Source: a virus
IMG/VR virus record: IMGVR_UViG_3300010430_000560
Span: 1-20,102 of that record
Length of the DNA stretch: 20,102 nucleotides
Strand: one strand, 5' to 3'
Positions within the stretch are counted from its first letter, which is position 1. Each line of letters opens with the position of its first letter. The notes under the pieces were generated by a model. The model searched no databases. It was not told the DNA's origin and was given only the letters and a program-made list of their open reading frames with translations. Shown one piece after another: positions 41 through 20,029 of this stretch. Made by a program: the position numbers and the translations under genes.

Positions 41-2089
41 TTATGAAGTGGCGGCGGTAGGAATGCGAATTAAAAACCAAGCGCGTTGCTTACCGGCGGT
101 CGGGAATGAGCTAATTGTTGTTACAGTAAATCCAGTGGTTGTTTTACTTGTTATGTAGCAATGAAAACCACCACTCCATTGGGTCAGTCCTTCAGATAAA
201 ATAATCTCGTAATTAGTATCGGGTTCACTCGCTCCAAAAACTACGGCATTTGAATTATTCGTTCCACCCGGCCAAGTCGCTAATCCATGAAAATTCTTTG
301 AGGCAGTTGTTGTTGTTGATAATCGATTAACATTGACCAAACCAAGTGAGGAACCATTAAACGTTACATGATCAAAACGCTCTGGTCCGGTCGATAATAG
401 GTTTTCTGCGACTAGTGAAGTGACATCCGCACCGGGCGTGCTTAATTCCGATGTAACGCAAGCACCAATTCTGTTGTTAGAAACGATAGCTTTTGTCGCT
501 CCACCAACACCTACGCCCAACACATAAATTCCGCGAAGTGAAACGTTGTTTGTAATTAAGTTATTGTTCGTAATTAATGTTTCATCTGTTGAACCTATAT
601 GTATACCAGTATCGACAGGCTCAATGATTATATTATTGGTTACATTTGTTCCGTTTGATGCAGGATCACCACCTGTTAGCCGGTCAACGGTAATTGCATT
701 ATCTTCTATTTTATCAAGGATATTATTAGAAATAATTGTGTTATCACTGGTTTTTACGGCAATACCTGTACCAGTTGAAACAACAGCTTGATTGCTTATA
801 TAATTGTCAGTAATAATGACATCAAATGCTATAGTTGTTACTTTAGCAACTTCTATACCTTCGGTTGTAAATCCAGTAATATTATTCCCTGAAATTATGA
901 CATCTGAGGCTTGTAAAACTCTGATTCCGTGGGTTGCACCCGACATAATATTATTCTGAATTGACGCTCCACTTGCATCGACTCGAACACTGACATTTGC
1001 TAGTGTATTACCCTCAAAATGATTGCTTTGTATTTGAGTATTGACAGCATTAGCACTTGTCACTTGTATGCCTTCAGACCCATTCTGAATATGCGTATCA
1101 AAAATATCGACATCGCCTACCGTTACAGTCGCGCCTATTCCTTCGATGGTTTGACCAGCATTATTAACGTCAATGGTAATATCGCGCATCGTTGAACCAT
1201 CAGAACCCACGCCAAATGTTATGAAATCCGCATCTGAGTTTGCGGCCATTTTTAATGTGCCAACACCAATAAAATGAATCTTTTTAGTAATCGTATCAGG
1301 TTGTATAACGGCAATACCATCAGGTACGAATAATGTCCCGCCTGCCGTTATTGCTGCAATACAATTAGTATATGCGGTATTATCATCCACCCCATCCATT
1401 TTAGCGCCATAACGTCGTAAATCGCCTATTGGGAATTCGTAATTGGTTACTCCAGCCTCCGTACCAGGATAGAAACGATAGTGGATTGCACGATCAGCAT
1501 CCACTCGCTGAATGGATAATGAAACAGTCGTCATTACAGGGTCGAGAACAGCCGCCGCACCTGTACTGTCTTGGATATCAACTAATGATACTGTAGTGTC
1601 TCCCGCAAAAGATGACGCGAATATGGTTGCATATCGGTTGTTTCCACCAGATAACCAGACTTTGCGTCCTTTATGGAAATCAGCGGTAACATCTATTCCT
1701 GTAATATTAAACGTTGTACCAGAAACATAAACCGCAGTGATACCTGTCAGCCATTGGCCTGATGCACCAGAACCGGCACCCCCAGTATCCGTAACATTAT
1801 CCACCGTCCAAATTGGTGTTGTAGGCGGATCAGTATCGGTATCGGTTGTATAAACGACTTTATAAGATAAGCCCGGCGTAAAATACACATCAATTGGCGT
1901 ACCTGCATTACCGGGTTCACCCCTGGCATTTAAGATAATCGGGTTTGGATTGGCAACAGCAAGGCTAGAATCCGTAAAGGTATCTTGTTTCGTCGTTGTA
2001 CCTGCTATATAAAAAAACAATTGATGGCCAGTGGCCAATATACTATTGGCATCATCAAATGTCGGTCTTACGTATGGCATTAATCCCAT
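41..2089 (-). CDS. tailspike / beta-helix receptor-binding protein
   Basis: Product of 682 aa. Residues 1-100 look like the head- or tail-binding N-terminal domain of podovirus tailspikes: an MPYVRPTF opening, then a GHQLFFYIAGT segment and a short beta-rich repeat ending in IWTVDNVT. Residues 110-210 form a second beta-rich domain. At 223-240 the DLRRYGAKMDGVDDNTAY segment matches the typical entry into pectate-lyase-like right-handed beta helices. Residues 250-570 carry the short N- and I-rich coils of such a helix (for example IISNNILDKI). The last 100 residues are a separate beta-rich domain, probably for trimerisation or binding. Role by family: trimeric fibre that binds or cleaves surface polysaccharide; catalytic residues were not identified. 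It is last after the ejection genes, comparable to P22 gp9. A terminator ends 13 bases before the start. The first ATG has GGGAAA upstream; an in-frame ATG at 2080 (residue 4) is an alternative. Confidence 0.85.
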   Translation of the reverse strand: MGLMPYVRPTFDDANSILATGHQLFFYIAGTTTKQDTFTDSSLAVANPNPIILNARGEPGNAGTPIDVYFTPGLSYKVVYTTDTDTDPPTTPIWTVDNVTDTGGAGSGASGQWLTGITAVYVSGTTFNITGIDVTADFHKGRKVWLSGGNNRYATIFASSFAGDTTVSLVDIQDSTGAAAVLDPVMTTVSLSIQRVDADRAIHYRFYPGTEAGVTNYEFPIGDLRRYGAKMDGVDDNTAYTNCIAAITAGGTLFVPDGIAVIQPDTITKKIHFIGVGTLKMAANSDADFITFGVGSDGSTMRDITIDVNNAGQTIEGIGATVTVGDVDIFDTHIQNGSEGIQVTSANAVNTQIQSNHFEGNTLANVSVRVDASGASIQNNIMSGATHGIRVLQASDVIISGNNITGFTTEGIEVAKVTTIAFDVIITDNYISNQAVVSTGTGIAVKTSDNTIISNNILDKIEDNAITVDRLTGGDPASNGTNVTNNIIIEPVDTGIHIGSTDETLITNNNLITNNVSLRGIYVLGVGVGGATKAIVSNNRIGACVTSELSTPGADVTSLVAENLLSTGPERFDHVTFNGSSLGLVNVNRLSTTTTASKNFHGLATWPGGTNNSNAVVFGASEPDTNYEIILSEGLTQWSGGFHCYITSKTTTGFTVTTISSFPTAGKQRAWFLIRIPTAATS

Positions 2090-2102
2090 AATAATTTCCC
2101 AT

Positions 2103-2130
2103 AAAAAAAGGCCACATAAGCGGCCTTTTG
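2103..2130 (-). terminator. intrinsic terminator between ejection protein gene and tailspike
   Basis: Read on the minus strand the sequence is AAAAGGCC, an 8-base loop (GCTTATGT), then GGCCTTTT running into a T tract. The arms at 2122-2129 and 2106-2113 pair perfectly over 8 bp, and positions 2109-2103 give seven consecutive T on the transcript strand. It sits 23 bases beyond the stop of the 925-aa gene and ends 13 bases before the tailspike ATG. The inverse orientation has only a four-T tract, so it should act mainly on minus-strand transcripts. Confidence 0.85.
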
Positions 2131-2152
2131 TTAGATATGATTTTGAGTGTGT

Positions 2153-4930
2153 TTAGGGGGTATTGGCTTGCTGTTCTTGGTCGTAGGCTATTGCAGCGGA
2201 TTTAGCCATTCTTGGCGTTGCTCGGATACCTTTTTCTATCGCCCATTGGCCTAACCGACTTGCCATTTTTGGTGGTAATCCCACTTTCTCTAGTTTTGTA
2301 ATATCGCTGACTAATTTTGCTAAATCGGGATCATATAATGCTTCTTCAATTAAACGTTCAACATTACCCTGATGTAGTTTATATAAATATTTTGATCCAA
2401 TATCAACACCAACATAACTTAAACTTGTTTTCCCATATAATGCCGCCCACCGTAATTGCGCAAATGCCGATGGAACGGATGTTCCAATCGCTTCTTGTAA
2501 TTGATCAATTGATGCTTTATTCGGATTCAATCGCATAATTGTTGAATGACGATTAAGAATATTCATAGCTTCTGCGACATTTTTTAGATTATTGTAATGA
2601 GCAGGTTTTAATTGATTGAATATAGGTTTTAACGTTTCTTCATTATCTGTTAGAAATTGCCATGGGTTATTTTGATTCATTATATGATCAGCAAATGTTG
2701 ACGCTAGACTTTCTTTAGCTTCTTTTGATTTCATTGACCGAAGCAATATTCTCATGGCACTTTTATCGGTTAAAGCATATTCAACAGCCCCATCTATATC
2801 ATCATAGCCTGCTATTTTTGCATAAGGACTTGCTTTGAATTCGTCATTTGCCTTTTGTTTAATAAATCGTTTATATCTTGTATTCACTTTTTGTTGACGT
2901 TTTGCCATATTATCCAACATCGTTTCCGTATGAGAAAATACGGCTTTCGTCGTTGGCACTTTATCCAAGACTTCTTTATAATCTCCCATGAAAGTATCCA
3001 CGGCGCTTTGAGACAATTTACCTTGTTTAACGGTTTTTTGCGAAAAGGCATCCATTATGCCATCTCTTAATAATAATTGTGCTTCTGGAACATCCTCGTA
3101 TAATTTATTAAACTGATCCAATCCTTCAGAAGTGCCTTTTTTAAGAATATTCCTACTAACAATTAGTCCTTCAGGTGTGGGTTTATTTCTACCAATACCT
3201 AATATTTCTGCCCCTAATCCTTGTTTAAATACATTAGAATATTCTTCACGATAAAATGTATCAACCGCTCCCTTATGCTTGGCAAAATTCCCATACACTG
3301 GATCATCAAATTTGGCTAATTTATCATCTAATGTATTTTTAATACCGCCCAAATGAAACAATTTGGTTCCATCATCGACTCTTAAGGCCCGGTTATATTC
3401 CCGGCTGATTTCTCTGTAAAGCGAATGAATCTTACGGAAACTGGCGATATTCGCCGTTGGCTTGGAAGTTAAACCTGGAGGTAATTCGACTAATCCAGAA
3501 GCACTTTCCGCGCCTTCGCTTAATAGACTTTTAATCTTTTTATAAACACCTGGCACCGTATCAAAGAAATATTGATCATCGGCTTGTATATCGACAACTA
3601 ATTTTCGGATATCCGAAACATCGTCCATTACTCCCAACTCGTCGGCTGCGTCATACAATTCATCATATTTAGCGTTTTTAGCTTTTCTGACTACTTCCAT
3701 TTTTTCTTTGGCAATTTTTCTTAATCGTTTTCCACCAGCTTCAGTGGCCTTACGTCCATACGTTTTGGCTAATTCTCTTTGTTGTTGCTCAATTTTCCTA
3801 AATTCCATTCGGATGTCGTTTTTTGTGGATTTAAACACCTTTTTTGCAGTAAATTCTTTAATTGCTGGCTCTGGAAATGCTCGACGGTAATAGGCTTGTA
3901 CTGCATCCACATTAGCTAATTCGTTTTTCATTGCGCGGTTAATGTTTGCTACATTCTTTTGATCCACACTTTGTTGCATTGCTGTCATACCGGGCGAATC
4001 AGCGGCTTGAGCGGGACTTGGCTTGAAATTTTCTATTTCTTCCCCTAATTCGAGAGAACGATCAATGTTTTTACTTGAATTTGGGTTTTCACCAATTGCG
4101 GCAGCTACTTGTTTTCTGGCACGATTTCGCGCAAATGCACCACCATAATCATCAGCTAATGCTCTTACATCATCAATGCCTCTTGTTTTAAGAACACGCA
4201 TTAATAACTCTGGTTTTAGACCATGTTTATTTAATAGATTAATAATCCCTGCGCCTCCTGCGGTTGTAAGTGTTCCCATCCCTGCGCCAGATAATTCACC
4301 TAAAAAGCGATATTCTTCTCCATAAGCATCGGCAAAGATATCACCTTGCCATTGAGCGCCTAGTCCAGCCATAGTGCTTTCTGTACCTTCCAAAATGGCC
4401 GCACGTTTAATTTCTGCCATGGTTGCCTTTGCACCCAACAATTTATTAATCATTGCGCCGCCCATTATGACGGACCCACCCAAGAATTCTGATACTTTTC
4501 CGACATATTTTTCTGTTGTTGTTTTACGTTCTTGTGGTTCACGCATTAACAACTTTTCCCAGCCTTCACGAATCATTTTTGAACCACCAATTGGGTCAGC
4601 ATCCATATCCAAGCCCGGTATTTGATCCATCAGCCAATTTGTTGCATCAACCAAGTATCCAGGTAAAGCGGCCACATCAGCAAAACCTTTTTTCATGCCT
4701 TCTGATATTACATTTATATTAAAATCTTCTTGTTGTGCGGGGGCTTCAGGTGTTATTGATGGTTCGCCCTGCATTTCGGCTTGCCCTTTTTCTTTTGCTT
4801 TATATCGTTCAAGATAGGCGGCTGCACCACCTGTTGGCGCTGGGGCAATTGATTCGCTTATCGTGGGTTCTGGCGCTGGTTGTCCCGCTTGTTGTGCCTT
4901 ATATCGCTGTAGATATTCTGCTGCACCCAT
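2153..4930 (-). CDS. large DNA-ejection (injection) protein, P22 gp16-like position
   Basis: Product of 925 aa, longer than P22 gp16 (about 610 aa). The N-terminus has a 16-residue motif twice (residues 2-17 and 35-50) joined by a proline-rich linker. Residues 75-105 (GMKKGFADVAALPGYLVDAT and onward) and two small-residue, glycine-rich stretches near 148-170 and 209-235 look membrane-active, as is common in the first third of phage ejection proteins. The rest is mainly charged and helical (about 270-900) with no enzyme motif that I recognise. By family such proteins are packed inside the head, leave before the genome and help DNA cross the host envelope. The start overlaps the previous stop as TAATG, so translation is probably coupled to the 391-aa gene. 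The assignment rests on gene order, size and composition rather than a diagnostic motif. Confidence 0.7.
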   Translation of the reverse strand: MGAAEYLQRYKAQQAGQPAPEPTISESIAPAPTGGAAAYLERYKAKEKGQAEMQGEPSITPEAPAQQEDFNINVISEGMKKGFADVAALPGYLVDATNWLMDQIPGLDMDADPIGGSKMIREGWEKLLMREPQERKTTTEKYVGKVSEFLGGSVIMGGAMINKLLGAKATMAEIKRAAILEGTESTMAGLGAQWQGDIFADAYGEEYRFLGELSGAGMGTLTTAGGAGIINLLNKHGLKPELLMRVLKTRGIDDVRALADDYGGAFARNRARKQVAAAIGENPNSSKNIDRSLELGEEIENFKPSPAQAADSPGMTAMQQSVDQKNVANINRAMKNELANVDAVQAYYRRAFPEPAIKEFTAKKVFKSTKNDIRMEFRKIEQQQRELAKTYGRKATEAGGKRLRKIAKEKMEVVRKAKNAKYDELYDAADELGVMDDVSDIRKLVVDIQADDQYFFDTVPGVYKKIKSLLSEGAESASGLVELPPGLTSKPTANIASFRKIHSLYREISREYNRALRVDDGTKLFHLGGIKNTLDDKLAKFDDPVYGNFAKHKGAVDTFYREEYSNVFKQGLGAEILGIGRNKPTPEGLIVSRNILKKGTSEGLDQFNKLYEDVPEAQLLLRDGIMDAFSQKTVKQGKLSQSAVDTFMGDYKEVLDKVPTTKAVFSHTETMLDNMAKRQQKVNTRYKRFIKQKANDEFKASPYAKIAGYDDIDGAVEYALTDKSAMRILLRSMKSKEAKESLASTFADHIMNQNNPWQFLTDNEETLKPIFNQLKPAHYNNLKNVAEAMNILNRHSTIMRLNPNKASIDQLQEAIGTSVPSAFAQLRWAALYGKTSLSYVGVDIGSKYLYKLHQGNVERLIEEALYDPDLAKLVSDITKLEKVGLPPKMASRLGQWAIEKGIRATPRMAKSAAIAYDQEQQANTP
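4781..4927 (-). repeat. duplicated 16-residue N-terminal motif in ejection protein
   Basis: Residues 2-17 of the 925-aa protein read GAAEYLQRYKAQQAGQ and residues 35-50 read GAAAYLERYKAKEKGQ: 11 of 16 positions are identical. The linker between them is rich in proline, alanine and serine. The repeat is seen directly; its meaning (for example a packaging, docking or cleavage signal) is unknown. Confidence 0.8.
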
Positions 4931-6105
4931 TACTTACCCCAATCGTAGTTAGGAAAGACTTCTTCGGCTAAATCGATTTTCTCTTGATCGGTTAAATATT
5001 TGTTACCCATAATTTCATCGGGTGAATCGTATTTTGCCACCGCATGAGAATCCAATTTATCTTTATTCGCCAGATAGCGAAAATAATCTTTACTATCATC
5101 TTTCATTTCATTGTACATAGCTTCAATTTCATCTAATGCCTCTAAAGCCATTTTCTTTTGTTCAGCACTGTAGGTTCCTAATAATGTTTTGCTAAAAAAT
5201 CCTGCAATACGTTGCTGTAAATTACCGAAGTTATTGTATTGTTTTAATTCTGCTAATGCTCTAACATCTGAATTAGCTACTTTAGATAAAGTGGCTTGTG
5301 CCATTTTAGCTGTCAATGGTGAGCCTTTTTCTACCGCTGTTCTTGCTAATGTTATTTGATCCAATGCACCAGAAATTTCTCCCGTTTCTTTGGAGTATTC
5401 TTTGCGTAAATCCACAGTGGATTTTTTTTGTGAGCGATAGGATTTTGCTCCCGCTGCTTCTTCAGCTAATCCAATACGTTTTTCACCCTGTTCTAACCGT
5501 TCTTGCGCTTGTTTAGCCCTAGTATCAGCTGATTCCTGTAGACGTTGTTCTTTTCTCAACTTAAATGCATCAACGGCTGCTAATGAGGAATAACGATATT
5601 TTGCAATATCGGCAATATTAAAATTTTCTCGGTCTACCATTTCATCGACATCAGAATTAGGATAACGTTTATCAAAGATTTCCATTGATCGTTTTAAACC
5701 GTCCAAATCTTTTACATCTTTTAATACATGTGATAAAAATTCCGCTTCCTCCTGCGCGGCCTCTCGTTTATTTTCATCGATATTCTGTGTTTGCAGAGAT
5801 ATTTGATTCGCCATTTCTTGGGCTTGCAAATATTCCTGCTGATATCCGCCCGCTTTTAATTTTTCCATCCATTCTTCAGTGGTTTCAGATGATCGACTGA
5901 TTTCATCCAATTCTTGTTGCTTTCCAAATTTGCGACGTGATTCCTCGATTTCCAGGTTCCGCTTTTCAGCTTGCTGTTCCGCTTGCTGTCGATCAATATC
6001 AGTGGCTTGGCGCGTTCGTTCTGCTTGAGCCATTTGCGCCATTCTCAACGGATAACTTTGCCCACCCTTACCCTGTTGTGCAATTAATTCTATGATATCA
6101 GCCAT
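4930..6105 (-). CDS. internal virion protein, probable DNA-ejection protein, coiled-coil rich
   Basis: Product of 391 aa, highly charged and rich in Q, E, K and A. Residues 20-85 and about 180-235 have long heptad-like stretches (for example RQQAEQQAEKRNLEIEE) expected to form coiled coils; residues 255-345 are helical with conserved-looking alanines. No signal peptide or membrane segment is seen. It lies between the 280-aa and 925-aa proteins, the place of the middle ejection protein (gp7/gp20 group) in P22, which is the main reason for the call. The start has a good ribosome binding site: AAGGGG lies within and after the stop of the previous gene, eight bases before the ATG. Its stop overlaps the next start (TAATG). 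No sequence motif proves the function. Confidence 0.6.
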   Translation of the reverse strand: MADIIELIAQQGKGGQSYPLRMAQMAQAERTRQATDIDRQQAEQQAEKRNLEIEESRRKFGKQQELDEISRSSETTEEWMEKLKAGGYQQEYLQAQEMANQISLQTQNIDENKREAAQEEAEFLSHVLKDVKDLDGLKRSMEIFDKRYPNSDVDEMVDRENFNIADIAKYRYSSLAAVDAFKLRKEQRLQESADTRAKQAQERLEQGEKRIGLAEEAAGAKSYRSQKKSTVDLRKEYSKETGEISGALDQITLARTAVEKGSPLTAKMAQATLSKVANSDVRALAELKQYNNFGNLQQRIAGFFSKTLLGTYSAEQKKMALEALDEIEAMYNEMKDDSKDYFRYLANKDKLDSHAVAKYDSPDEIMGNKYLTDQEKIDLAEEVFPNYDWGK

Positions 6106-6117
6106 TTGTTAATCCCC

Positions 6118-6960
6118 TTAAAATCCTGCCATGCCGCCACTTAATGCACCCATACCACCAGCATCGGATTGCATATTACTGCCGGTATACGTTGAGCCAC
6201 CGCCACCACCCCAGCTACCACCACCAAAGCCAGATTGCATAGGGCCACCGCCGCCACCACCACCGCCACCACCACCACCACCTTGATTACCTAGCATTCC
6301 AGAACCACTACTGCCCCGTTGAGAACCAAAGTAGTTTTCAACACCACTTGCTGCGGCTTCAGATTGCGCCAAATGGACACTGGCATTGATATCACCCAAT
6401 CGCATCTCATATTCACCCATTTGCTTACCATAGCCCGTATAGCTACCTGAGAGGTATTGTGAGGCTCGCTCGCCAATAGCCAATTGACCCCCAATATTAC
6501 CCATATATGCGTTGAGTGTTCCTAAATCAAACCCACGACCCTGTAAGTAATCCTGATAAGCCCCGCGATAATCGGCTGATGCAAAGTTTTCTGCGTAGCG
6601 TTTAGCGGCTTTAATCTGAGCGCCAGAGAGGTAAGACTGAGTATTTCCGTCAGCTATTCCAATAGACTTTAAACCTTCTTGCAGACGGAATTCATAAGCG
6701 GGTGTTTTTTCATATTCAAAACTTTCGTAAGCAGGTTTTTCCATCATTCTTTCGTAGCGGTCCATGGCGCTACGATAGGTTTCCATGCCTTCCATGCCAA
6801 ATTCCGCCCATGGGCGTTGCTCGGCTTCTACCCTGCCTTGTGCTTCTTCAGCACGTCGCATCGCATTTTTGGTGCCTTTTTTGGCCTCACGTCCTGCTCG
6901 CCAAGCGCCGTATTGTCGAAATACCGTACCTGCAACTGAACCTATTTGTGACCAACTCAT
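6118..6960 (-). CDS. DNA-transfer / ejection-type virion protein with polyglycine tail
   Basis: Product of 280 aa. Residues 1-75 are basic and helical (GAWRAGREAKKGTKNAMRRA). Residues 85-170 hold the pattern AYEFRLQEGLKSIGIADG, then SGAQIKAAKRYAENFASADY and a second helical stretch up to GERASQYLSG. From memory this pattern is typical of the small DNA-transfer proteins in podovirus and prophage tail modules. The last 65 residues are almost only G, S and a few aromatics, with 13 consecutive glycines at 227-239. The P22 counterpart would be one of the small ejection proteins (gp7 or gp20 group). AAAGGT lies nine bases before the ATG. It stands first in a run of three genes that together resemble an ejection set. 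Confidence 0.65.
   Translation of the reverse strand: MSWSQIGSVAGTVFRQYGAWRAGREAKKGTKNAMRRAEEAQGRVEAEQRPWAEFGMEGMETYRSAMDRYERMMEKPAYESFEYEKTPAYEFRLQEGLKSIGIADGNTQSYLSGAQIKAAKRYAENFASADYRGAYQDYLQGRGFDLGTLNAYMGNIGGQLAIGERASQYLSGSYTGYGKQMGEYEMRLGDINASVHLAQSEAAASGVENYFGSQRGSSGSGMLGNQGGGGGGGGGGGGGPMQSGFGGGSWGGGGGSTYTGSNMQSDAGGMGALSGGMAGF
6244..6282 (-). repeat. GGT/GGC trinucleotide run coding 13 glycines
   Basis: Thirteen consecutive codons, all GGT or GGC, including an uninterrupted run of five GGT at the upstream end. Simple triplet runs like this can change length by replication slippage without breaking the frame, so the tail length of the 280-aa protein may vary between isolates. Confidence 0.9.
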
Positions 6961-8082: not shown

Positions 8083-8525
8083 ATGACGTACCACTCATTA
8101 TCAATGGAAGAATAAATGCATTGGGCTGCTTCATAGTTAGTGATTAGTTTATAGTTTGTTGTTCCGTCGATTGCGCTTGCGCTAATTGTTACAGTACCTA
8201 ATCCTGTGGCTCGCTTGACTGTCACTTTTTCTTCATTGATAGGATTGGGATTTAAGGTAATCGTGATGTTGGATGTCGCAACGATAATGGAATTACCATA
8301 GGTGGTGAAATCTGTTCCCGTTGAAATGAATTGGGTGTCACTGTCAAAAAAAGGTGTTCCCCAAGAATACGTTGCAATACTTTCTTCGGTATCTGACGTT
8401 ATTGCATCCGTTGGGCCGCCTGTTCTTTCCCACAATTGGTTTAGAAAGATAAACGCTAAATCAGTTAATCTTCCGTCGTCATTGGTAAACTTAATCTGAG
8501 AATCAAAAAGATATACTTCAGTCAT
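8079..8525 (-). CDS. small tail protein in the tail-needle position
   Basis: Product of 148 aa. Residues 15-38 (DGRLTDLAFIFLNQLWERTG) form a short amphipathic helix-like opening; the rest alternates like beta strands and closes with YEAAQCIYSSIDNEWYVI, an ending that I recall from knob or fibre proteins. In P22 the gene after gp10 encodes the tail needle gp26, but that protein has a long heptad coiled coil and none is visible here. It may be a reduced plug, a fibre tip or an unrelated tail protein. It overlaps the gp10-like gene at its start (ATGA) and the 259-aa gene at its end (ATGA), so its translation is coupled on both sides. Confidence 0.6.
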   Translation of the reverse strand: MTEVYLFDSQIKFTNDDGRLTDLAFIFLNQLWERTGGPTDAITSDTEESIATYSWGTPFFDSDTQFISTGTDFTTYGNSIIVATSNITITLNPNPINEEKVTVKRATGLGTVTISASAIDGTTNYKLITNYEAAQCIYSSIDNEWYVI

Positions 8526-9913
8526 GATTCTGTATTTCCGCTTGCTTCGGCATCCAATATGACGGTTCTAACAGGATCAGCGATTCGTAGTTTAAAGACA
8601 CGTTGATAAAACGCGCCTAAATTGTGGAATTTCAATCGAGTAACGTATTCACCAGTTTTACCTAATGTGGCGAATTTCTCCTTTGACCATGTTTTGCCAC
8701 CGTCATCAGAATACGTGAGCATTGCCTGTGGGTTTTCAGTACCATTACCAACACCACTTTCAATATCGACTTCCAATCTATCCATAAAGACACGTCTTCT
8801 ATCTCCATGGATAGTAGGCGTTGAGGCTGTTCTAAAAATAGTCTCACCGTTATCGTCATATAACCCTAAACTTGATTGATAAATCTTTCCGTTACGGTAA
8901 TCACTAACATAATGTTTTTCATTTAAGAAAGCATAAGCCCCACTTAAATGCCGTCCTGTGAGTCCGGTTCGGCGTTGGTGCCATGCTCTGCCAACGTCCC
9001 TGATTGATGCATCATAAACCCACGTGGCATTTCCTTCAGGGAATGCCATTACCAAAAAGGAGTGGCCTTCTTCTTCGTAGGAATACGAATAGGCGTCAGC
9101 ATATGTTGGATAGGAATTAATGGCCGTTTCAATTGCATGAGTTGAAATACGGGTCGCTTTAAACCCTACGCCGTTATAAACAACTCCATCATCACCTAAC
9201 CAATAAATCGAGTTATCCAATTGAATGGGCGTATGGATTGCCCCACAACCTTTTTCAATCGCGGTTCCTGTGACTTCAGAGAATGGAAAATTTAACTCAT
9301 CGCCTGTATAGGCCCATATATTGGTTGCGGAAGTACCGAACAGCCAAATATAGGCATGATCCGCCAAACTACTGACGAGTAAATCAGGATTTGTGGTAAT
9401 TTGACCAAAGTTTAAAGCGTCAAAATGAAGACCGTCATAAGTATTACTGATGAAAAATTGATTCGTACCTTTGCGAATAAAAATAAAACGGGTATTTCGA
9501 TAAATCACAATGTCGCATGGAAACCATGCTGGGTCAGTGATACGAAGCAGACCCAATGAATCTGAATAAATGTAACCATCTACCCCATTGACCACACATA
9601 ATTCTTTACCGCTATCCGCAAAACTGACACGACCAGAACCGGCCACTGTGCCTAATGATGTTACAACACCGGCGGCTGATATTTTATAGAGAATGGTATC
9701 GGAGACAGCGTATAACTCCCCCAAATATTCATGCATTCCACGAATTGGAAAAGCCCCTAAATTCGCAAATAATTCGGTTCCTGGCGTTGGATACGAAACA
9801 ATTGATGCTTTGGATGAGTCCGGGTTAATTTCAACATAGTAATTGATAAGCTCTTGAGCATTGGCGTTTAAGGATCGGGTAGCATATGCGCGTTCACCAA
9901 AAGGTATCTTCAT
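8522..9913 (-). CDS. packaged DNA stabilisation / tail hub protein, P22 gp10-like
   Basis: Product of 463 aa, close to P22 gp10 (472 aa). The opening, with ERAYATRSLNANAQELINYY followed by YPTPGTELFANLG and IRGMHEYLGELYAVS, is the pattern I associate with the P22 gp10 family: a protein starting with residues that list the sources of DNA stability and then reading as a beta-propeller-like series of short strands. Further repeats include GRVSFADSGKELCVVNGVDG and YWLGDDGVVYNG. Gp10 forms the hexameric hub under the gp4 ring that closes the portal and holds tailspikes and needle. Its position directly after the gp4-like gene, with an ATGA overlap, is as in P22. The C-terminal 100 residues (LEVDIESGVG, SDDGGKTWSK, FHNLGAFYQRVFKLRIADPV) fit the same family. 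Confidence 0.87.
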   Translation of the reverse strand: MKIPFGERAYATRSLNANAQELINYYVEINPDSSKASIVSYPTPGTELFANLGAFPIRGMHEYLGELYAVSDTILYKISAAGVVTSLGTVAGSGRVSFADSGKELCVVNGVDGYIYSDSLGLLRITDPAWFPCDIVIYRNTRFIFIRKGTNQFFISNTYDGLHFDALNFGQITTNPDLLVSSLADHAYIWLFGTSATNIWAYTGDELNFPFSEVTGTAIEKGCGAIHTPIQLDNSIYWLGDDGVVYNGVGFKATRISTHAIETAINSYPTYADAYSYSYEEEGHSFLVMAFPEGNATWVYDASIRDVGRAWHQRRTGLTGRHLSGAYAFLNEKHYVSDYRNGKIYQSSLGLYDDNGETIFRTASTPTIHGDRRRVFMDRLEVDIESGVGNGTENPQAMLTYSDDGGKTWSKEKFATLGKTGEYVTRLKFHNLGAFYQRVFKLRIADPVRTVILDAEASGNTES

Positions 9914-10617
9914 CGATTAAATTGTGGTTGTAGATAGATTGACGTGTTTTCAGCATCCCAACCCAACACTTCATCAAGAAATGTTTTCGCTTGTGCCGTT
10001 ATTTGTGAAACCTTATTGGTCGTCACACCATTGCGATGGGCTATTCTTGCTGCTAATCCCCATTCAATAGCTTCTTCCCATTCAACAGGAAAATCCAAAT
10101 CATCCGTCGTTGATACCATGTCTTCAAAAGGCCGTTGATAAACTAATTCAATGGTCTTACCGGCTGTATTGGCATCGGCAGTATTAAAGATATAAAGAAC
10201 CCCTAAATTGTCTTGAGGATCGTAATAGATTTCATTGGGAATACCTTCAGATGTCTTATCGCCCAAATTCCAATATTCTTCTCTTGATATGATTTCCAAA
10301 GGGCTATCATTGGACGTGGTTTCTCGATACCACGCATCCGTAATCATTAAAGGACGTTCTGTTAATCCTGTCCCACCAGGACCGCACGTATAGCTTTGCG
10401 TGCCTTGAGTTAAGGTAATGGTTCCCCGTTTAAGTGCAAACAATTCTAAACCATGCTTTATGAATCCTTTCAGCATTTGGTTTAATACTTTCTGTGCGGA
10501 GCGCAATTGTTGGTCTGATAGTGGTTCGCTGGGGTCAATCACACGACATGTTTCATAGGCACCCGTGATAATATCCAGCATATTCGAACGAAACGTGGTT
10601 ACACCTGAAGTCGCCAT
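9910..10617 (-). CDS. tail accessory / head completion factor, P22 gp4-like
   Basis: Product of 235 aa. Helices at the start (LDIITGAYETCRVIDPSEPL then SDQQLRSAQKVLNQMLKGF) lead into a beta part with LTQGTQSYTCGPGGTGLTER and a C-terminal helical pair (EWEEAIEWGLAARIAHRNGV). This order is that of the P22 gp4-like tail accessory factors, which bind the portal ring after DNA packaging and start tail assembly. P22 gp4 is shorter (about 166 aa) and has been reported to have cell-wall hydrolase activity; no such active site is evident here. The ATG directly follows the previous stop (TAAATG), with AAGGGG upstream inside the 799-aa gene. The ATGA overlap with the gp10-like gene supports coupled production. 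Confidence 0.85.
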   Translation of the reverse strand: MATSGVTTFRSNMLDIITGAYETCRVIDPSEPLSDQQLRSAQKVLNQMLKGFIKHGLELFALKRGTITLTQGTQSYTCGPGGTGLTERPLMITDAWYRETTSNDSPLEIISREEYWNLGDKTSEGIPNEIYYDPQDNLGVLYIFNTADANTAGKTIELVYQRPFEDMVSTTDDLDFPVEWEEAIEWGLAARIAHRNGVTTNKVSQITAQAKTFLDEVLGWDAENTSIYLQPQFNR

Positions 10618-13017
10618 TTACTTAGCCCCTTCTAATGCTTCAATTCGCGTTAATAATTGATCGATATGAGCGGCTTGTAATTCGACGGTTTCCCATAACT
10701 TTTGAACCATCTTGCCGGTTGGTAATGGACCATCTTCAATCCATTCCTCTTTAGAAGGCATTGTTGGTAAATGTTTCTTGGTTTTCCAAAAGTCGGTAAA
10801 CTTGGTTACATCGATACGATTATCGATGTCATCAACAAATCGTCTTGCCGGTTCATGGAATGTTTTTAATTCTTCTTTATTGGGTACAAATCCATCCCAT
10901 TCAGATAAATCGATTTTGCCGTCAACGATGTAATGAGGTACATAACACGTGAGTAATACACCATCATCATAAACAGCGGTTGCATTGAATGTTCCTGATC
11001 CTTGAGAACCACCTGTGGCACCAACCATGAATGCGCCTTGGTCGGAAGCTATCGTCATTGCTGTAGACGATGCACCAGATAAGAAATTTATACTTGCACC
11101 AGCTTTAGATGTACCTGCGCTTAATACACCACCGTTATAATTCCATTGTAATAAAGCACCTAAATTATCAGTTGGTGAACCGAAATAAATGCTAGAATTA
11201 GCGGCATCTGGCGCTAGAATTGATATTCCTGAATTAGCGGAATTTTCTGCAATTATTTCATTGGCGTCAATATGCGCTGTTACCGTTCCCGCCGATCCTG
11301 TATGGACATGACATTTTCCATCGGAGGTTCCAATACCTACGCCTAAATTCTGTGACGCATCAAGTGTCATTCCCAAGACATCATTACCTGAATAGAAGTC
11401 TAATTTCGCATTAGCCGTAGCGGTTCCCAATGATGCTGCTAAACCACTGTAATTCCAATTATAATAAGCGGCGAATTCATCTGAGGGTGAACCAATAGCA
11501 ATAACGCCAGTACTAGCGTCAGGCGTTAACACGCTAATACCACCATTAGTGCTGTTTTCAACAATTAAATCGTCTGCTAGGTTATTTGCTGTTACAGCTC
11601 CAGCTGTTGCTGTATGGACGTGTAATGTGCCGTCGGGATTTGTTAAATCACCAATACAGACTTCTTGATTAAACGCTATTCTTATCGCTGTTACATTACC
11701 TGATTTTAATTCTAAACTTGAGCTAGGTGCAGAGGCACCAATTGAGGCTAAATTTGCTGTTGGATTCCATGTATAAAAGGCACCAAAATTCGCGCTTGGC
11801 GATCCAAAATATAGATTAGATGAATTTGCATTAGGTGAAAGGATGCTAATGCCAGTGTTTGCGCTATTCTCGACAATCAATTCATCTGCTGAAGCACTCG
11901 CGGTAACTGTTCCTGCTGTGGCTGTCTGAACGTGCATCGTTCCATCGGGTATGGTATTTATTCCTAACGGTCCATTCACTCGATGCGCATCGTCAACAAC
12001 AATCACTTCTTGATAACCCGATGTCATGACACGATTGCTCGTACCATCTCCCGAAATTGCTACAAATAACCCATTTCCATAAACAACATCATTCCATGTA
12101 TTAGCCGCCGCACCAGTACGGATTGTCCAGTTAATTCCGTCTGGTGATGTCATTACATTGTCGGTTCCCCCACCAGCAGTGTCCCGACCAACAGCAACGA
12201 ATACACCATTACCCCAAGTAACATTATTCCACTCGGTATTAAGGCTTGTTACACGGATTGTCCAGGTAATGCCGTCAGGTGATGACATCACACCGTAATC
12301 AACGTCAATTGATGATACGGCTACAAACATACCATTGCCGTAAACAATCCCGTTCCATGAATTATCGGCAGCACTGGTGCGACTCGTCCATGTAACAGCG
12401 TCGGGTGATGTCATAACTCGATCACCTGTTCCTGTCTCGCCAACAGCGACGTATAATCCATTGCCATAGGTTACGGCATTCCATACCCTGGCAACCGGAA
12501 GCGTTTGTCCCGTCCAGGTAATACCGTCTGGTGATGACATGCAACCGCTAGTTGTGTTCTGACTCGAAACTGCGACAAATAATCCATTACCATAAACGAT
12601 TGAAGACCATGACGAGCTTAAGGGGGGTGTACGCAGTGTCCAAGTAATACCATCATATGATGTCATGACTCGCGTGCCGCCAACATTAGCAACCACGACA
12701 AATACTCCATCACCATACGCCACGCTTTGCCAACTAACATCGGCGGCGCTGGTTCTTATTGTCCAATTAACGCCATCTGGAGATGTCATTACGCGATTGC
12801 CGGTTCCCGTTTGAGCTATGGCAACAAATAAACCATTTCCGTAAGTGACAGATTTCCAATTATTATCAACCGGATTGGTTTGGCTTGTCCACGATACCCC
12901 TAATATCTCATCTGTAGCTTCAATCGTTATTACTCGACTATTCAAATCGGTAAAATTACCATCCAATTCACTATGGGTTAATGGACTATCTTTTACATTT
13001 CGTAATACAATTGTCAT
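10618..13017 (-). CDS. tail fibre-like protein: propeller repeats, 104-residue repeats, C-terminal assembly domain
   Basis: Product of 799 aa with four regions. Residues 1-35 (VLRNVKDSPLTHSELDGNF) match the widespread phage fibre attachment opening SPLTxxExDxNFxxL. Residues 43-336 are seven repeats of 41-45 residues with the core WNxVxYGNGLFVAVG and SPDGITWT, as expected for a seven-bladed beta propeller with Asp-box-like turns. Residues 358-669 are three repeats starting at D358, D462 and D566 (DGTxHVxTATAG, then ENSxNxGISIL and FGSP). Residues 676-799 (FNATAVYDDGVLLTCYV, a KKHLPTMPS stretch and a final heptad helix VELQAAHIDQLLTRIEALE) resemble C-terminal trimerisation or chaperone domains of fibres; no peptidase S74 cleavage dyad is seen. 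Likely a trimeric adhesin. It overlaps the previous small gene as ATGA. Confidence 0.82.
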   Translation of the reverse strand: MTIVLRNVKDSPLTHSELDGNFTDLNSRVITIEATDEILGVSWTSQTNPVDNNWKSVTYGNGLFVAIAQTGTGNRVMTSPDGVNWTIRTSAADVSWQSVAYGDGVFVVVANVGGTRVMTSYDGITWTLRTPPLSSSWSSIVYGNGLFVAVSSQNTTSGCMSSPDGITWTGQTLPVARVWNAVTYGNGLYVAVGETGTGDRVMTSPDAVTWTSRTSAADNSWNGIVYGNGMFVAVSSIDVDYGVMSSPDGITWTIRVTSLNTEWNNVTWGNGVFVAVGRDTAGGGTDNVMTSPDGINWTIRTGAAANTWNDVVYGNGLFVAISGDGTSNRVMTSGYQEVIVVDDAHRVNGPLGINTIPDGTMHVQTATAGTVTASASADELIVENSANTGISILSPNANSSNLYFGSPSANFGAFYTWNPTANLASIGASAPSSSLELKSGNVTAIRIAFNQEVCIGDLTNPDGTLHVHTATAGAVTANNLADDLIVENSTNGGISVLTPDASTGVIAIGSPSDEFAAYYNWNYSGLAASLGTATANAKLDFYSGNDVLGMTLDASQNLGVGIGTSDGKCHVHTGSAGTVTAHIDANEIIAENSANSGISILAPDAANSSIYFGSPTDNLGALLQWNYNGGVLSAGTSKAGASINFLSGASSTAMTIASDQGAFMVGATGGSQGSGTFNATAVYDDGVLLTCYVPHYIVDGKIDLSEWDGFVPNKEELKTFHEPARRFVDDIDNRIDVTKFTDFWKTKKHLPTMPSKEEWIEDGPLPTGKMVQKLWETVELQAAHIDQLLTRIEALEGAK
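11023..11946 (-). repeat. three tandem 104-residue repeats
   Basis: Repeat starts are at residues 358, 462 and 566 of the 799-aa protein, an exact spacing of 104 residues each time. Each unit runs DGxxHVxTxxAGxVTA, an IxENSxNxGIS segment, a GSPxxxxxAxxxWN segment and a closing beta pair. Sequence drift between units is clear, so the duplication is old rather than recent. Confidence 0.8.
12010..12891 (-). repeat. seven tandem propeller-type repeats of about 42 residues
   Basis: Seven units begin with the conserved WT at residues 43, 85, 126, 168, 210, 252 and 297 of the 799-aa protein. Unit lengths are 42, 41, 42, 42, 42, 45 and about 40 residues. The core of each is W(N/Q/S)xVxYGNGxFVAV followed by MTSPDGxxW. 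The count of seven fits a closed seven-bladed propeller. Confidence 0.88.
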
Positions 13018-13330: not shown

Positions 13331-16273
13331 TTAGTAATTGAATATTTTTCTGCTTATTTGTTCATATCCTAATTCTGTTAAATGTTCTGGACCGCCGCCG
13401 TCATACCAGCCGCTACTTGTCATTTCATTGAAATTTGTTAGTGTAGAGATGTCTACGCTATCAATGTTAGGTACTGTTGCCGCATAGACTTCCATCGCTA
13501 GTCTATAAGATATTAATTCTGCGTCGTCTGGATCGCTTATAGGGTGACTTGGTACAACCATCCAATATATTCCACCATCGGAATAATTAGCATTCCAAAC
13601 TGATTCAACTCTTGAGACTAATGCTTTGAAATTGTCCACATAGGCTTCTGCGCTATCTGGGTCTATTATTGCGTCGGGTCCAAGAGATGGCGTTGATGTT
13701 TCATTGCGGTCATTTATACCTGCATTGACCATCATGACTATTTTAGGACTATAGCCCGCTGATTCCTGAAGTCTTCTTGCTTCTGATAAATTCAATAATA
13801 TGGAATTGTCGTGGGCCGCTATAAATGCCGCCGCCATATCGTACATACTTGTACCCCCTAATGAATACATGCTTGTATACGATATCCCGAACGTCCTTGC
13901 TTCTATTTCTCCGCGCCAAAAATAACTTAAATAAGGGGCAGTTACCGTTGTTCCGACATGACCAAATCTACAGGCAATTTGATCCGGTCTTGGTCCTACC
14001 CCAGAATTTAATGACGTAAAGGCAACTTCTTCTACACCTGTATTCGTACTAATCGGTGAACCAGTGACATAATTTGTCCAAGGTGATTTTTCTAAACGAA
14101 TCCCTGGCGTAAAAGAACCTGCGCCCGCATCAAACGTTCCATAGCAATAATGAATTTTAAAATCTTCATTTAATACATTGAAAGGGTCTTCGGTTGAAGG
14201 CGTTGTAAGAAATAAACCAAACCCTTGGACAAAAGTGGCTGCTGCTAAATAAGAATAATTTTGGGGAAATAAATTACCATCCATATAATTATCAAGCACT
14301 GTCGGCGCACCTGTTTCTGCTGCTGCTGCATCTCGATCACCTCCTGCTGCATAATAACCTAGCGCCTGTCCCGCACCGCCACTCTCGCCTGTGGTTAATA
14401 TTCCGGTCGCATATAATCCGAATGTCTTCGATAATGCAAATTGCATCCCATGATCCCACCCAATACCACCAAACGCTTGATTCGAGTCACCAATTGCCAA
14501 TATATCAATACGTCGTTCGTGTGCTTCTTCCAGTACTCTACCGACTGTACTCGTCATAAATGTACTAGAGTTTATTATTGATGGCCCATTTAATTGCCTT
14601 GGATGGAAAGGACCATAAATGCTTTGCAAACCACCAATATCTATATCGAAACCTGGAAACGGATTTCCATTAGCTGATTGTTTTAAATTATTAGTGATTT
14701 TACCAATATTCAATAAGGCTGAATCGCTTGATAATTCGTAATTATTATTTGCTCGATCCTCAAGATTGGTATCTGCCCAGGTTTGTAAATTAGCATTCGT
14801 AAAACCCGACGTTGCCGCCGCCCCACCTTCAACACTGCAAAAATCTGTGTTATAAGTTGTGGCTCCTGCTCCATCTCCAAAGATTTCTTCATTTGCCACG
14901 CCACCATTCCCAATAATACAATTGTCCATTTGAACAGTGAGCGAATAAGTAAGATTCTCATTATTGAAACGGCAACCATCTACATTGCCTGCACTAGCCG
15001 TATTATCAACGAATGTGCATCCCGCTAACGTAATGGTCTTATTTCGTGTTGATGTTGTGACGTGATTATGGCCATAGAAGGCTTGGCCTTTCTGACTTGC
15101 TGTAGCACCTGCTCTGCGAGTAGTACCATATACAAGCAATCCATAACCCGTGAAATCTCCATAACCACCTGTATAAATTGCCCCATGTTTACAAGTACAA
15201 TTAGCGGCCACCACATTTTCTAAAGTGCCTTCTGCTCCATCTGAGGCATAATAGGCGGGTCCAAAATCCCCTGTGCATCGGGTCACACTGACATTTTTAT
15301 ACGTACCTGTAGCATTCACTGTTGTGGCTAGAAAAATACCGCCAGTTGAATTGTCTCCTGTGCTGGGTGTACTTATACAATCCGTTGCAACAACATCTTC
15401 CACCTCATATGTAAATGCCGCATAACACAGAATAGCCCCGGCTGTACCACCCGTCCAAGTGCATCCCGATATATCGACATTGTAAATTTTAACGTCCACA
15501 CTCGCGATACATTGAATAAAAGAACGGTGCGCGTTTGTTGCCGTTTGAATGGATGTCACATTGGAAATACTGATTCGACTCGTTGTATCACCAAATTGTA
15601 TATCGGCCCCATCTGCCCAAATGAATGCGCGATGGGTCGCTCCATCATACGAACCGTGTATTCTGTTGAATGTACAACCACCAATAAATCGAACGGTGCC
15701 TGTTCGAAATCGTCCAATCACCACCCCACCCGTACCACCGGATAAACGGATATTTGAAAAATCACATGCATTAAAGGTAAACACTCTGCTAGTGCTTACG
15801 GCACCATAAGCAATTAATCCCAAGTCATTGCTACCCGATGGCAATGTGCATGTAATATCATCAAATTTACAATTATTGTATGTTACATCCGTCATTGCAC
15901 TTGAGGCTTGAAACATTACATACTGCCCAGTAACGGCTGTCGTGCGTTTGAATGTAATATTATTTAAAACAAGTGTTGATGAGGCTACGGCAGTATTCAT
16001 ATTAACGCCATTTGATGTAGTCATCTGAAAATCTACAATACAATTCGCCGCATTACTCCCTCGGCTTGACCATGTTTTCGCATTATCAAACTTAATACCT
16101 GTTAATATCGACGTGATAACAAACGTATCATCATCAAGGATCATTTCATCGCCATCGGTTAAAGCAGCCGACCCTGTTTCTAATGAGGCATAACAATTTG
16201 CATTCGTCCAATCATCAGGGGTTGAAGCGCCTGTTGTTTTGGTTCCGCTATTTTTTACGTGGAAAACTGCCAT
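13331..16273 (-). CDS. beta-helix virion protein fused to SGNH/GDSL esterase-like module
   Basis: Product of 980 aa. Residues 1-540 are a right-handed beta helix: short N-, T- and C-rich coils such as LVLNNITFKRTT and VVAANCTCKHGAIYTGGYG. Residues 544-563 carry a motif shared with the upstream protein. Residues 590-980 look like an SGNH hydrolase: block I at G595-D596-S597-N598 (LAIGDSN), a possible block II at G806-G807 (YSLGGTS), block III at G852-I853-N854-D855 (NAGINDRNE), and block V near H964 (GPEHLTELGY). D958 lies six residues before H964 instead of the usual three, so the Asp partner is uncertain. By family such modules remove acetyl groups from surface polysaccharide, which would help the phage reach its receptor. 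Translation is coupled to the 589-aa gene by TAATG. Confidence 0.8.
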   Translation of the reverse strand: MAVFHVKNSGTKTTGASTPDDWTNANCYASLETGSAALTDGDEMILDDDTFVITSILTGIKFDNAKTWSSRGSNAANCIVDFQMTTSNGVNMNTAVASSTLVLNNITFKRTTAVTGQYVMFQASSAMTDVTYNNCKFDDITCTLPSGSNDLGLIAYGAVSTSRVFTFNACDFSNIRLSGGTGGVVIGRFRTGTVRFIGGCTFNRIHGSYDGATHRAFIWADGADIQFGDTTSRISISNVTSIQTATNAHRSFIQCIASVDVKIYNVDISGCTWTGGTAGAILCYAAFTYEVEDVVATDCISTPSTGDNSTGGIFLATTVNATGTYKNVSVTRCTGDFGPAYYASDGAEGTLENVVAANCTCKHGAIYTGGYGDFTGYGLLVYGTTRRAGATASQKGQAFYGHNHVTTSTRNKTITLAGCTFVDNTASAGNVDGCRFNNENLTYSLTVQMDNCIIGNGGVANEEIFGDGAGATTYNTDFCSVEGGAAATSGFTNANLQTWADTNLEDRANNNYELSSDSALLNIGKITNNLKQSANGNPFPGFDIDIGGLQSIYGPFHPRQLNGPSIINSSTFMTSTVGRVLEEAHERRIDILAIGDSNQAFGGIGWDHGMQFALSKTFGLYATGILTTGESGGAGQALGYYAAGGDRDAAAAETGAPTVLDNYMDGNLFPQNYSYLAAATFVQGFGLFLTTPSTEDPFNVLNEDFKIHYCYGTFDAGAGSFTPGIRLEKSPWTNYVTGSPISTNTGVEEVAFTSLNSGVGPRPDQIACRFGHVGTTVTAPYLSYFWRGEIEARTFGISYTSMYSLGGTSMYDMAAAFIAAHDNSILLNLSEARRLQESAGYSPKIVMMVNAGINDRNETSTPSLGPDAIIDPDSAEAYVDNFKALVSRVESVWNANYSDGGIYWMVVPSHPISDPDDAELISYRLAMEVYAATVPNIDSVDISTLTNFNEMTSSGWYDGGGPEHLTELGYEQISRKIFNY
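14585..14644 (-). repeat. shared beta-helix end motif, copy in the 980-aa gene
   Basis: Codes residues 544-563, IDIGGLQSIYGPFHPRQLNG, at the border between beta helix and SGNH module. By hand alignment about 49 of 60 bases match the copy at 16285-16344, and 19 of 20 residues are identical. Confidence 0.9.
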
Positions 16274-19068: not shown

Positions 19069-19100
19069 AAAAAGAACGCCTCGGAGGAGTTTGAGGCGCT
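19069..19100 (-). terminator. intrinsic terminator after the major capsid gene
   Basis: On the minus strand AGCGCCTC (19100-19093) pairs with GAGGCGTT (19082-19075) around a 10-base loop, with one G-T pair, followed by CTTTTTATT. It begins 14 bases after the capsid stop codon. A terminator here would give more capsid message than message for downstream tail genes. Confidence 0.8.
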
Positions 19101-19114
19101 AAGAGAGATAAAAC

Positions 19115-20029
19115 TTAAGCAGGACCAGAACCGTAGATAGCCCTTGGATCACCTGTTGTTACACTGAAACGAACAGTAGATTTCGCTTTGGCGTTATCCG
19201 TATTAAAATCGTTGTCCTGCGTGAAATCCACTGCACGACGGGCGAAATAACACATACCAGAAGATGGTACGTTGGTTCGGATAAACCAATTGTTTGCATC
19301 AGTGAAGTAATGGTTAACCTTAATACCACCCGGCAATGCATTGGTTGCCTTGAGCACATTAGAGGCATTATTGGCTGTATCGTTTTGAAGAATAGACTTC
19401 ATAATACGATTGGCCTCAAACCATAGTTGACGTGGAACATGCAAGGATTGACCCATCAGCGAGATTTTTAAGCCTCGATCATTGGTTGCACCCATTATTT
19501 GTATCAGCAAATCTTCAATAGACGTTTCTGATAATGCCGCAGGGACAGCCAATGCATTGGACCATGTGCCACCCGTTGAATTGGGATGATCCACTACAAT
19601 GAGTGCCGATCCGTCGCCGTAGGTATAAGAAGCATTAAAAGCCCGGTTATACACATTCGCGCAGACATTCTCTTGAGTCTGTCTCATTGAGAAGGCCAAT
19701 GATTCGGCACGCCTCATAGACACATCCTCATACAGATTGTCGTCCATTTCTTCGCGGGTAACGATATAACCCAAACCGTAAACGATATGGGTTGCCCGTG
19801 TTAAATAACCCTGTTGGTGCGAATCATAAATAACCGCACCGCCTTGTGATTTAATGGGAGCCAATCCAAAAGAAGTACTTTGGACCAATTCTTCATACGC
19901 TTTATTCGAATCTTTCTTATCGAATAAATCGAAACATTCCATAGGATGTTCACTGTATTTAAGACCCCAAAAATCATATACCCCAGGCCATAACGCCTTG
20001 GGATGGTTGCCTGTTGTAATAATAGCCAT
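19115..20029 (-). CDS. major capsid protein (Mu gpT-like type)
   Basis: Product of 304 aa. Characteristic parts: HPMECFDLFDKKDSNKAYEE, then GGAVIYDSHQQGYLTRATHI and YGLGYIVTREEMDDNLYEDV, the helix RRAESLAFSMRQTQENVCAN leading to YNRAFN, DGSALIVVDHP and a C-terminal PRAIYGS. This order of an acidic N-terminal arm, a YGLGxxVTREExDDxLY segment and a long helix before a DGxAL turn is what I associate with the Mu gpT group of HK97-fold capsid proteins. P22 coat gp5 is longer (430 aa) and unlike. It would form the icosahedral shell. The start is secure: AAAGGAGA lies six bases before the ATG. A terminator follows the gene. No protease, scaffold or portal gene is within the window; they are expected just upstream, beyond 20102. 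Confidence 0.82.
   Translation of the reverse strand: MAIITTGNHPKALWPGVYDFWGLKYSEHPMECFDLFDKKDSNKAYEELVQSTSFGLAPIKSQGGAVIYDSHQQGYLTRATHIVYGLGYIVTREEMDDNLYEDVSMRRAESLAFSMRQTQENVCANVYNRAFNASYTYGDGSALIVVDHPNSTGGTWSNALAVPAALSETSIEDLLIQIMGATNDRGLKISLMGQSLHVPRQLWFEANRIMKSILQNDTANNASNVLKATNALPGGIKVNHYFTDANNWFIRTNVPSSGMCYFARRAVDFTQDNDFNTDNAKAKSTVRFSVTTGDPRAIYGSGPA

Follow-up and report, generated by a model that had tools for sequence, protein, structure and literature searches.

How a phage transcribes its tailspike gene when what appears to be an intrinsic terminator stands directly against the ribosome site of that gene is the question raised by the IMG/VR virus record IMGVR_UViG_3300010430_000560. 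The whole stretch analyzed, here called the window, is a viral contig of 20,102 bases whose 16 main open reading frames (ORFs) all lie on the minus strand, in a P22-like order. Between the stop codon of a 925-aa gene and the ATG of the tailspike gene (2089) there are 63 nt, and these contain a hairpin, a T tract and a ribosome site:

41 to 2089, minus strand: tailspike gene, 682 aa, with an N-terminal domain that other podovirus tailspikes also have, followed by a right-handed beta helix (PF13229, 2.4e-14).
2097 to 2100, minus strand: likely ribosome-binding site GGGA, as read from the sequence, 7 nt before the ATG (2089–2087).
2103 to 2109, minus strand: U tract of seven T, four of which can pair with A's; then A, T.
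2106 to 2129, minus strand: predicted terminator hairpin (RNAfold and sequence), a G+C-rich 10-bp stem with one G·U and a 4-nt loop.
2153 to 4930, minus strand: 925-aa gene, its stop codon at 2153–2155.

The answer proposed here, to which we would give roughly even chances, is that an intrinsic terminator sits at a module boundary of the late operon, where it would stop ordinary polymerase and be ignored by antiterminated polymerase, the tailspike being reached by read-through. An intrinsic terminator within a late operon, even before the tailspike, is of an already known kind (P22 t_ant, 174 nt away); what would be new, as far as the literature searched goes, is a terminator packed against the tailspike ribosome site and recurring at near-fixed spacing in unlike phages. 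Beyond P22, epsilon34 and L, the literature covered, which lacks most subscription journals, yielded no report of a tailspike or tail-fibre gene that has a terminator immediately in front of it.

Read on the minus strand, the 5′ arm of the hairpin (2129–2120) is AAAAGGCCGC, the loop (2119–2116) is UUAU and the 3′ arm (2115–2106) is GUGGCCUUUU. A first-pass annotation of this DNA had spoken of a strong terminator with a perfect 8-bp hairpin; its terminator grade stands, whereas the stem is one of 10 bp with one G·U. The positions given there are borne out by the sequence, in which the T tract ends at 2103, 13 nt before the ATG, and the stem 19 nt before it. No promoter fits into those 13 nt, as had been claimed, and it is by elimination that the tailspike would need read-through, antitermination or a promoter located upstream. 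The same dependence had been extended to a gene after the tailspike, but the window holds none, the tailspike stop being at 41 and the contig end at 1.

In its context the hairpin folds with −16.0 kcal/mol (RNAfold; z −3.8), a stability equalled by none of 200 shuffles. A scan of our own, which combines the energy of the core hairpin stem with a U-tract score and in its first version admitted loops of up to 9 nt, ranks it first on the minus strand by the summed score; among 100 dinucleotide shuffles of the whole window, both strands included, none held a hairpin matching it on both measures, and five matched the sum. When loops of up to 14 nt are admitted, a longer hairpin inside a gene (11502–11548) obtains a slightly better summed score, with a T tract of −2.32 vs. 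−4.52, and this poor tract rules it out as a terminator. The hairpin of the tailspike junction is the window's best terminator candidate having a proper U tract. It is omitted by a packaged terminator scan, apparently since the A-U pairing consumes the T's; that scan gives 21 sites in total against 16.5 ± 3.9 expected, which is not clearly above chance. As a control, our scan found 6 of 10 annotated P22 terminators on the annotated strand with loops of up to 9 nt (t_ant and t_late included), and 7 of 10 with loops of up to 14 nt, where it misses sar, aI and a23; further P22 sites scored though they are not annotated.

On the plus strand the stem of the window's hairpin carries an A-C mismatch and is followed by the tract TTTTGTTAG; there it folds with −12.0 kcal/mol (z −1.67, with 12 of 200 shuffles equally stable) and is scored by the scan at −7.9 kcal/mol for the core and −3.31 for the tail, so that it is at best a weak bidirectional terminator. 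The orientation favors transcription in the late sense, because the sense RNA has a G·U where the antisense has an A-C mismatch, and because the sense T tract is the better one. Curated RNA families (Rfam 15) gave no match at gathering score anywhere in the window.

The case is more than a one-off, because the same layout is present in other phages. The sample was composed of loci (L numbers below) encoding the tailspike N-terminal domain, from IMG/VR (the best 80 among 534 confirmed candidates and the best 80 among another 586), from GTDB genomes (16) and from named phages; 197 sequences were scanned, the window included, of which 193 have the domain and 191 are usable, that is, have at least 100 nt upstream. 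Under thresholds set before the survey and after the window had been seen (core −7 kcal/mol, tail −3.3, loop up to 14 nt), 23 of the 191 loci, counting the window, have a terminator stem ending no more than 60 nt upstream of the start codon; with the preceding 100 nt shuffled, the mean was 0.3 loci in 191 (20 repeats). All of them except L158 also pass the −8 and −3.5 of an earlier set of thresholds, used with loops of up to 9 nt. The stem ends 16–23 nt before the start in 20 carriers (19 nt in the window), a spacing that leaves no room for a promoter; the others are L030 (9 nt, start codon doubtful), L107 (32 nt) and L158 (50 nt). Three further loci have a terminator only at 61–400 nt. At 80% protein identity there are 92 clusters, 16 of them with a terminator-bearing member; L060 and L112 represent the same contig, and a few others likewise entered twice. 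Among the carriers are contigs whose titles name Burkholderia, Luteimonas, Achromobacter and Sulfuricaulis, together with Xanthomonas phage PBR31 and Pseudanabaena phage Pan3, and only two of the 23 (the window and L168) score in both directions.

Other groups are arranged differently. In the BA3-like phages (L002–L005, L014) the tailspike begins 1–2 nt after the previous gene with no terminator before it; L002, L004, L005 and L014 have terminators that follow the tailspike or the final late gene, and none was found in L003. Among eight named records with P22-type tailspikes, HF4s has a weak-tailed terminator at 25 nt, L one at 380 nt and SEN22 one at 163 nt, the other five having none within 420 nt. 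A hairpin of another sort was seen in Salmonella phage Lumpael (L203), where a G+C-rich stem of 7 bp (GGGGGCC AGGT GGCCCCC) lies immediately ahead of locus position 1489 and ends 5 nt from the tailspike ATG; as the only clearly Shine-Dalgarno-like bases are in its loop, it is a possible translational switch.

The layout is commoner before tailspikes than elsewhere. Over the same-strand junctions of L016–L190 and the window, a terminator is found at 18 of 147 tailspike junctions and at 19 of 590 others; after dereplication these become 12 of 71 and 9 of 285 (Fisher p 1.1e-4), with the starts at the other junctions taken as the longest possible and their distances therefore rough. The nine remaining others lie 20, 23, 28, 53, 67 and 221 nt before the start, and three just inside the called ORF; in one group of 11 loci the compact form recurs, with its hairpin 28 nt ahead of a 236-aa gene. 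We take it as a general mode of terminator placement in phage operons, commoner before tailspikes in this sample.

A tree of 109 tailspike N-termini, built on few columns and with many unresolved forks, requires 12 changes of the trait, which 17 of its tips bear, and at least three of these changes are forced by well-supported branches; the trait is nevertheless clustered, the mean being 16.1 when it is shuffled, with none of 500 shuffles as low. (L108, whose hairpin falls just under the threshold, is among these 17 and outside the 23, and for L158 the reverse holds.) The sequences of the hairpins differ between distinct groups. This argues for a terminator gained or lost repeatedly, which would be useful and not essential; a mobile cassette of single origin is not favored, given the differing hairpins and the number of changes, even if the clustering is to be set against this.

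The spacing on the other side of the hairpin may also carry meaning. In the set of 22 loci for which it was considered, the compact gaps from the nearest upstream stop codon to the core hairpin are 16 nt in L021 and 22–27 nt in L020, L022, L029, L030, L060 (copy L112), L096, L155, L157, L183, L188 and the window, of which L155, L157, L183 and L188 are one group; the statement leaves aside gaps of 48–219 nt (L032, L062, L106, L107, L110, L191, L197) and two loci whose upstream ORF is doubtful (L098, 5 nt; L168, overlapping). In the window the distance is 26 nt to the core stem, or 23 nt if the A-U pairs are counted. The terminator tR2 in Escherichia coli is reported to have next to no activity when only a few bp separate it from a stop codon and to be maximal, with an efficiency of about 0.9, beyond about 27–30 bp, and at 17–18 bp its efficiency depends on the sequence (0.12 and 0.8) (PMC4824070). 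The distances of the compact loci fall where tR2, as described there, shifts from ribosome-repressed to fully active. Thus, the compact gaps look like about the smallest that would allow a working terminator and a ribosome site, or like a setting that a trailing ribosome could tune.

The first-pass annotation had also suggested that the hairpin influences the access of ribosomes, and this did not hold up. The predicted openness of the start region (−14 to +6), compared in the 22 loci with 40 shuffles of the hairpin arms, averages 0.50 in native and 0.46 in shuffled sequences; it exceeds the shuffled mean in 12 of the 22, is lower in the window (0.37 vs. 0.41), and shows a clear gain only in L155, L157 and L168, members of one group. 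A role in ribosome access or as an insulator was therefore rejected as a general function.

The nearest known counterpart is t_ant of P22 (BK000583; annotated at 16012–16035), which is likewise an intrinsic terminator in the late direction, after the ejection genes and before tailspike gene 9. It differs in lying 174 nt from the start codon instead of 19, and in being annotated as the terminator of ant, whereas the 63-nt gap of the window directly follows the 925-aa gene and has no counterpart of ant. In P22 the level of tailspike is believed to be set by how frequently late polymerase gets across the ant region (PMC2629481, citing Adams et al. 1985). This phage, whose antiterminators are annotated, has two other hairpins close to genes: a stem-loop after the coat gene, 18 nt before orf69, and a tR2-like terminator of the nin region, 24 nt before ninB, which resembles that of the window in standing inside an operon shortly before the next gene, and differs in belonging to the early operon, for which antitermination is annotated, and in lying inside ninA. 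In phage L a terminator likewise stands inside a late operon thought to have one promoter, but it follows the procapsid module and does not precede the tailspike, its role being stated there as unknown (PMC8022706).

Two carriers come closer in spacing. PBR31 (MT119766) has, like the window, internal proteins and then the tailspike, with a hairpin 19 nt before the tailspike ATG; unlike the window, it has two tandem terminators in a 254-nt gap that also contains a small antisense ORF. By our scan it has seven plus-strand terminators, four of them 20, 28, 25 and 19 nt before starts and the others at 50 nt (in tandem with the last), at 116 nt and inside a gene. One of its genes is annotated as antiterminator Q, and the main text of the PBR31 paper does not contain the word “terminator.” In Pan3 (ON968454) an ejection protein is again followed by a hairpin, 18 nt before the tailspike ATG; here the gap is of 112 nt, the host is a cyanobacterium and the tailspike N-terminus is distant (a long branch).

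The wider gaps also held antisense ORFs. Among 20 tailspike loci with a gap of at least 70 nt, 11 contain an antisense ORF that encodes 30 aa or more and includes a strongly hydrophobic stretch: L008 (P26218), L191 (PBR31), L032, L062, L100, L101, L103, L104, L106, L107 and L110. Those of P26218, PBR31 and L107 are alike by eye (K/R-PF and then a hydrophobic run); no PHROG match was obtained for the five tried, nor a Pfam match for three. P22 has the antisense gene sieA (superinfection exclusion) just after gene 16, and it is conceivable that the ORF in these gaps is a small exclusion gene.

The window contains a second hairpin of this type, in a late region of which the features outside the tailspike junction are:

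19077 to 19098, minus strand: second terminator-like hairpin (z −3.8), right behind the capsid gene, with 53 nt remaining to the next start.
19115 to 20029, minus strand: major capsid gene, 304 aa (phrog_371, 1.8e-7; PF25209, 4.2e-8).
9910 to 10617, minus strand: head-tail adaptor-like protein.
8522 to 9913, minus strand: P22 gp10-like head-closure/stabilisation protein (phrog_578, 3.5e-112).
6118 to 6960, minus strand: DNA-ejection protein, P22 gp7-like (phrog_598, 9.2e-12).

Several genes without an assigned role lie between the capsid and adaptor-like genes, and the virion genes of this strand frame the tailspike-junction hairpin in the P22-like order of capsid, gp10-like, gp7-like and then tailspike. 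Just before the tailspike a 391-aa gene and the 925-aa gene occupy the positions of gp20 and gp16, neither with a family match above the cut-off; the 925-aa protein, which has no relative among the phage records, would be a DNA-ejection protein (P22 gp16-like), to judge by its position and by the gene order in other phages. A 799-aa gene contains six imperfect 40-nt repeats, 123–135 nt apart, at 12118–12793, and its protein, which matches EPTP (PF03736), is perhaps beta-propeller-like.

The post-capsid hairpin is a weaker terminator candidate than that of the tailspike junction; the scan limited to loops of up to 9 nt missed it and the scan with loops of up to 14 nt found it. It occupies the same post-capsid place as the P22 stem-loop before orf69. 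The nearest relative found, the 27-kb IMG/VR contig L007, whose gp10-like protein is 85% identical and whose capsid-region tblastx match is 93.5% identical, shows one terminator immediately behind the capsid gene, 54 nt ahead of the next start, and a second one gene further on, 29 nt ahead of the start that follows. Module boundaries elsewhere in the late operon of this phage group would thus carry terminators as well. The contig of this relative stops short of the tailspike junction and has no match to the 925-aa protein or the tailspike; these two proteins have no relative in the viral contigs (single-sequence search), and the 24-nt hairpin pattern has no exact match there. Hairpins after the capsid gene were also seen in P22 (the annotated stem-loop) and in Vibrio phage 1.211.A, and a terminator after the major capsid gene has been predicted in podovirus AS11 (PMC5537680). 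The relative's contig (L015) carries a gene with a sulfotransferase domain upstream of the terminase gene (9861–10655, plus strand) and one with a DnaJ domain on the opposite strand (4494–5000, minus strand).

If these elements are put together, the late operon would run on the minus strand from the capsid to the ejection genes and on to the tailspike, and its expression could be as follows: (i) an unmodified RNA polymerase would release an mRNA ending just past the 925-aa ejection gene; (ii) a polymerase modified by an antitermination system of the phage would pass the hairpin and copy the tailspike; (iii) translation of the tailspike would then begin at the gene's own ribosome site, which abuts the U tract. 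In other words, the terminator would hold the tailspike off, or low, until late antitermination, and would limit stray transcription into it. From the sequence we infer that the hairpin would actually terminate, that an antiterminator exists and that the tailspike is reached by read-through; a terminator in an antiterminated late operon is most likely, as the simplest account consistent with known phage biology. P22-like phages are described as having intra-operon terminators despite a single known late promoter, with roles stated as not known, and those suggested are partial termination or the stopping of stray transcription that is not antiterminated (PMC8022706).

Several observations weigh against this account. 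The window, which has late genes only, contains no antiterminator, and the 27 distinct proteins scanned from the 27-kb relative (three of them against both libraries, with many small ORFs unscanned) gave no antiterminator match; the annotated Q of PBR31 for its part has no PHROG or Pfam match. The compact layout is not exclusive to tailspikes, as the group with the 236-aa gene, PBR31 and P22 attest. Finally, 168 of the 191 tailspike loci are without such a terminator, as are L016, L017 and L018, the window's nearest rows in the tree, and for this reason the terminator must be dispensable.

A more ambitious formulation, which we regard as doubtful, would be that a standard control cassette, in which a terminator is fused to a ribosome site, precedes the genes for receptor-binding proteins in many dissimilar podoviruses and prophages. 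In the compact form, with the hairpin about 25 nt after the stop codon and about 20 nt ahead of the ATG, it would make transcription of the tailspike conditional on antitermination and perhaps also on the translation of the upstream ejection gene, since the stop codon is placed at the limit of the range within which a terminating ribosome prevents the hairpin from folding; the cassette would have been gained repeatedly at tailspike swaps, keeping the new spike silent outside late lytic growth.

Alternative explanations have to be set beside antitermination. The hairpin could be a plain partial terminator, an attenuator through which a fixed share of read-through sets the tailspike message below those of the head and ejection genes. 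Such an attenuator draws on the same sequence evidence, agrees with the absence of an antiterminator among the 27 scanned proteins of the relative, and has a precedent in the partial termination that the authors on phage L offer as a possible intra-operon role (PMC8022706); it is made rather unlikely by the fact that it is not generally needed (the 168 loci do without a hairpin) and that late antiterminators are annotated or described for P22, PBR31 and phage L, whose hairpins are comparable. It is less probable that a promoter inside the 925-aa gene transcribes the tailspike, the hairpin being a leader attenuator or a hurdle to read-through on a short transcript. Two minus-strand sites there agree with the consensus at 9 of 12 positions (2936–2909 and 3264–3236), but the sigma-70 consensus scan lists none on that strand at 2127–2908, promoter-like sites in the window number 42 against 56.2 in shuffles, and the transcript would in any case need to read through the hairpin. 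Promoters of a phage RNA polymerase, in the form of a repeated motif, were rejected: among the seven direct-repeat families listed, none shows such a motif before genes.

Other explanations look beyond termination in the late sense. That the hairpin acts on the RNA, by shielding either the upstream message at its 3′ end or a processed tailspike message at its 5′ end, would fit the finding that a stable hairpin immediately adjoins the ribosome site (9–32 nt) in 22 of the 23 loci, and an antiterminated polymerase would yield exactly such an RNA; it is nevertheless improbable, as such protection does not need the U tract that is present (for which, it is true, the scan itself selected) and as the start region is not consistently more open. 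The terminator could instead be a scar of module exchange, marking the site at which a swap brought in the tailspike or a small additional gene, and having little present effect. The junction is described as the site of the variable sieA/ant region in P22, at some loci it holds the small antisense ORF with a hydrophobic stretch, and the trait comes and goes across the tree; yet the repetition of the same short spacing and of a U tract in unlike sequences is not expected of decaying scars, which makes this explanation very unlikely. Least probable would be a service to the other strand, where the hairpin would halt antisense transcription originating within the tailspike gene, much like the antisense RNA system of a prophage. 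In the Salmonella prophage BTP1 an antisense RNA that confers immunity to BTP1 spans the junction of the injection gene and the tailspike, which is thus a regulatory site there too (PMC7067206), and the hairpin of the window does score on the plus strand; against this stand the mismatch, the poorer T tract and a fold only somewhat better than shuffles, together with the scarcity of bidirectional hairpins (2 of 23).

The tailspike determines the host of a phage, and phages frequently swap it. The compact terminators before it could offer a concrete handle on a question already in print, namely the function of the terminators found inside late operons (PMC8022706), and laboratory exchanges of tailspikes that keep or drop the 60-nt segment may alter the dosage of the spike unnoticed. 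The recurrence of the layout in unlike phages suggests that the production of the spike depends on a polymerase that has been made to pass a stop.

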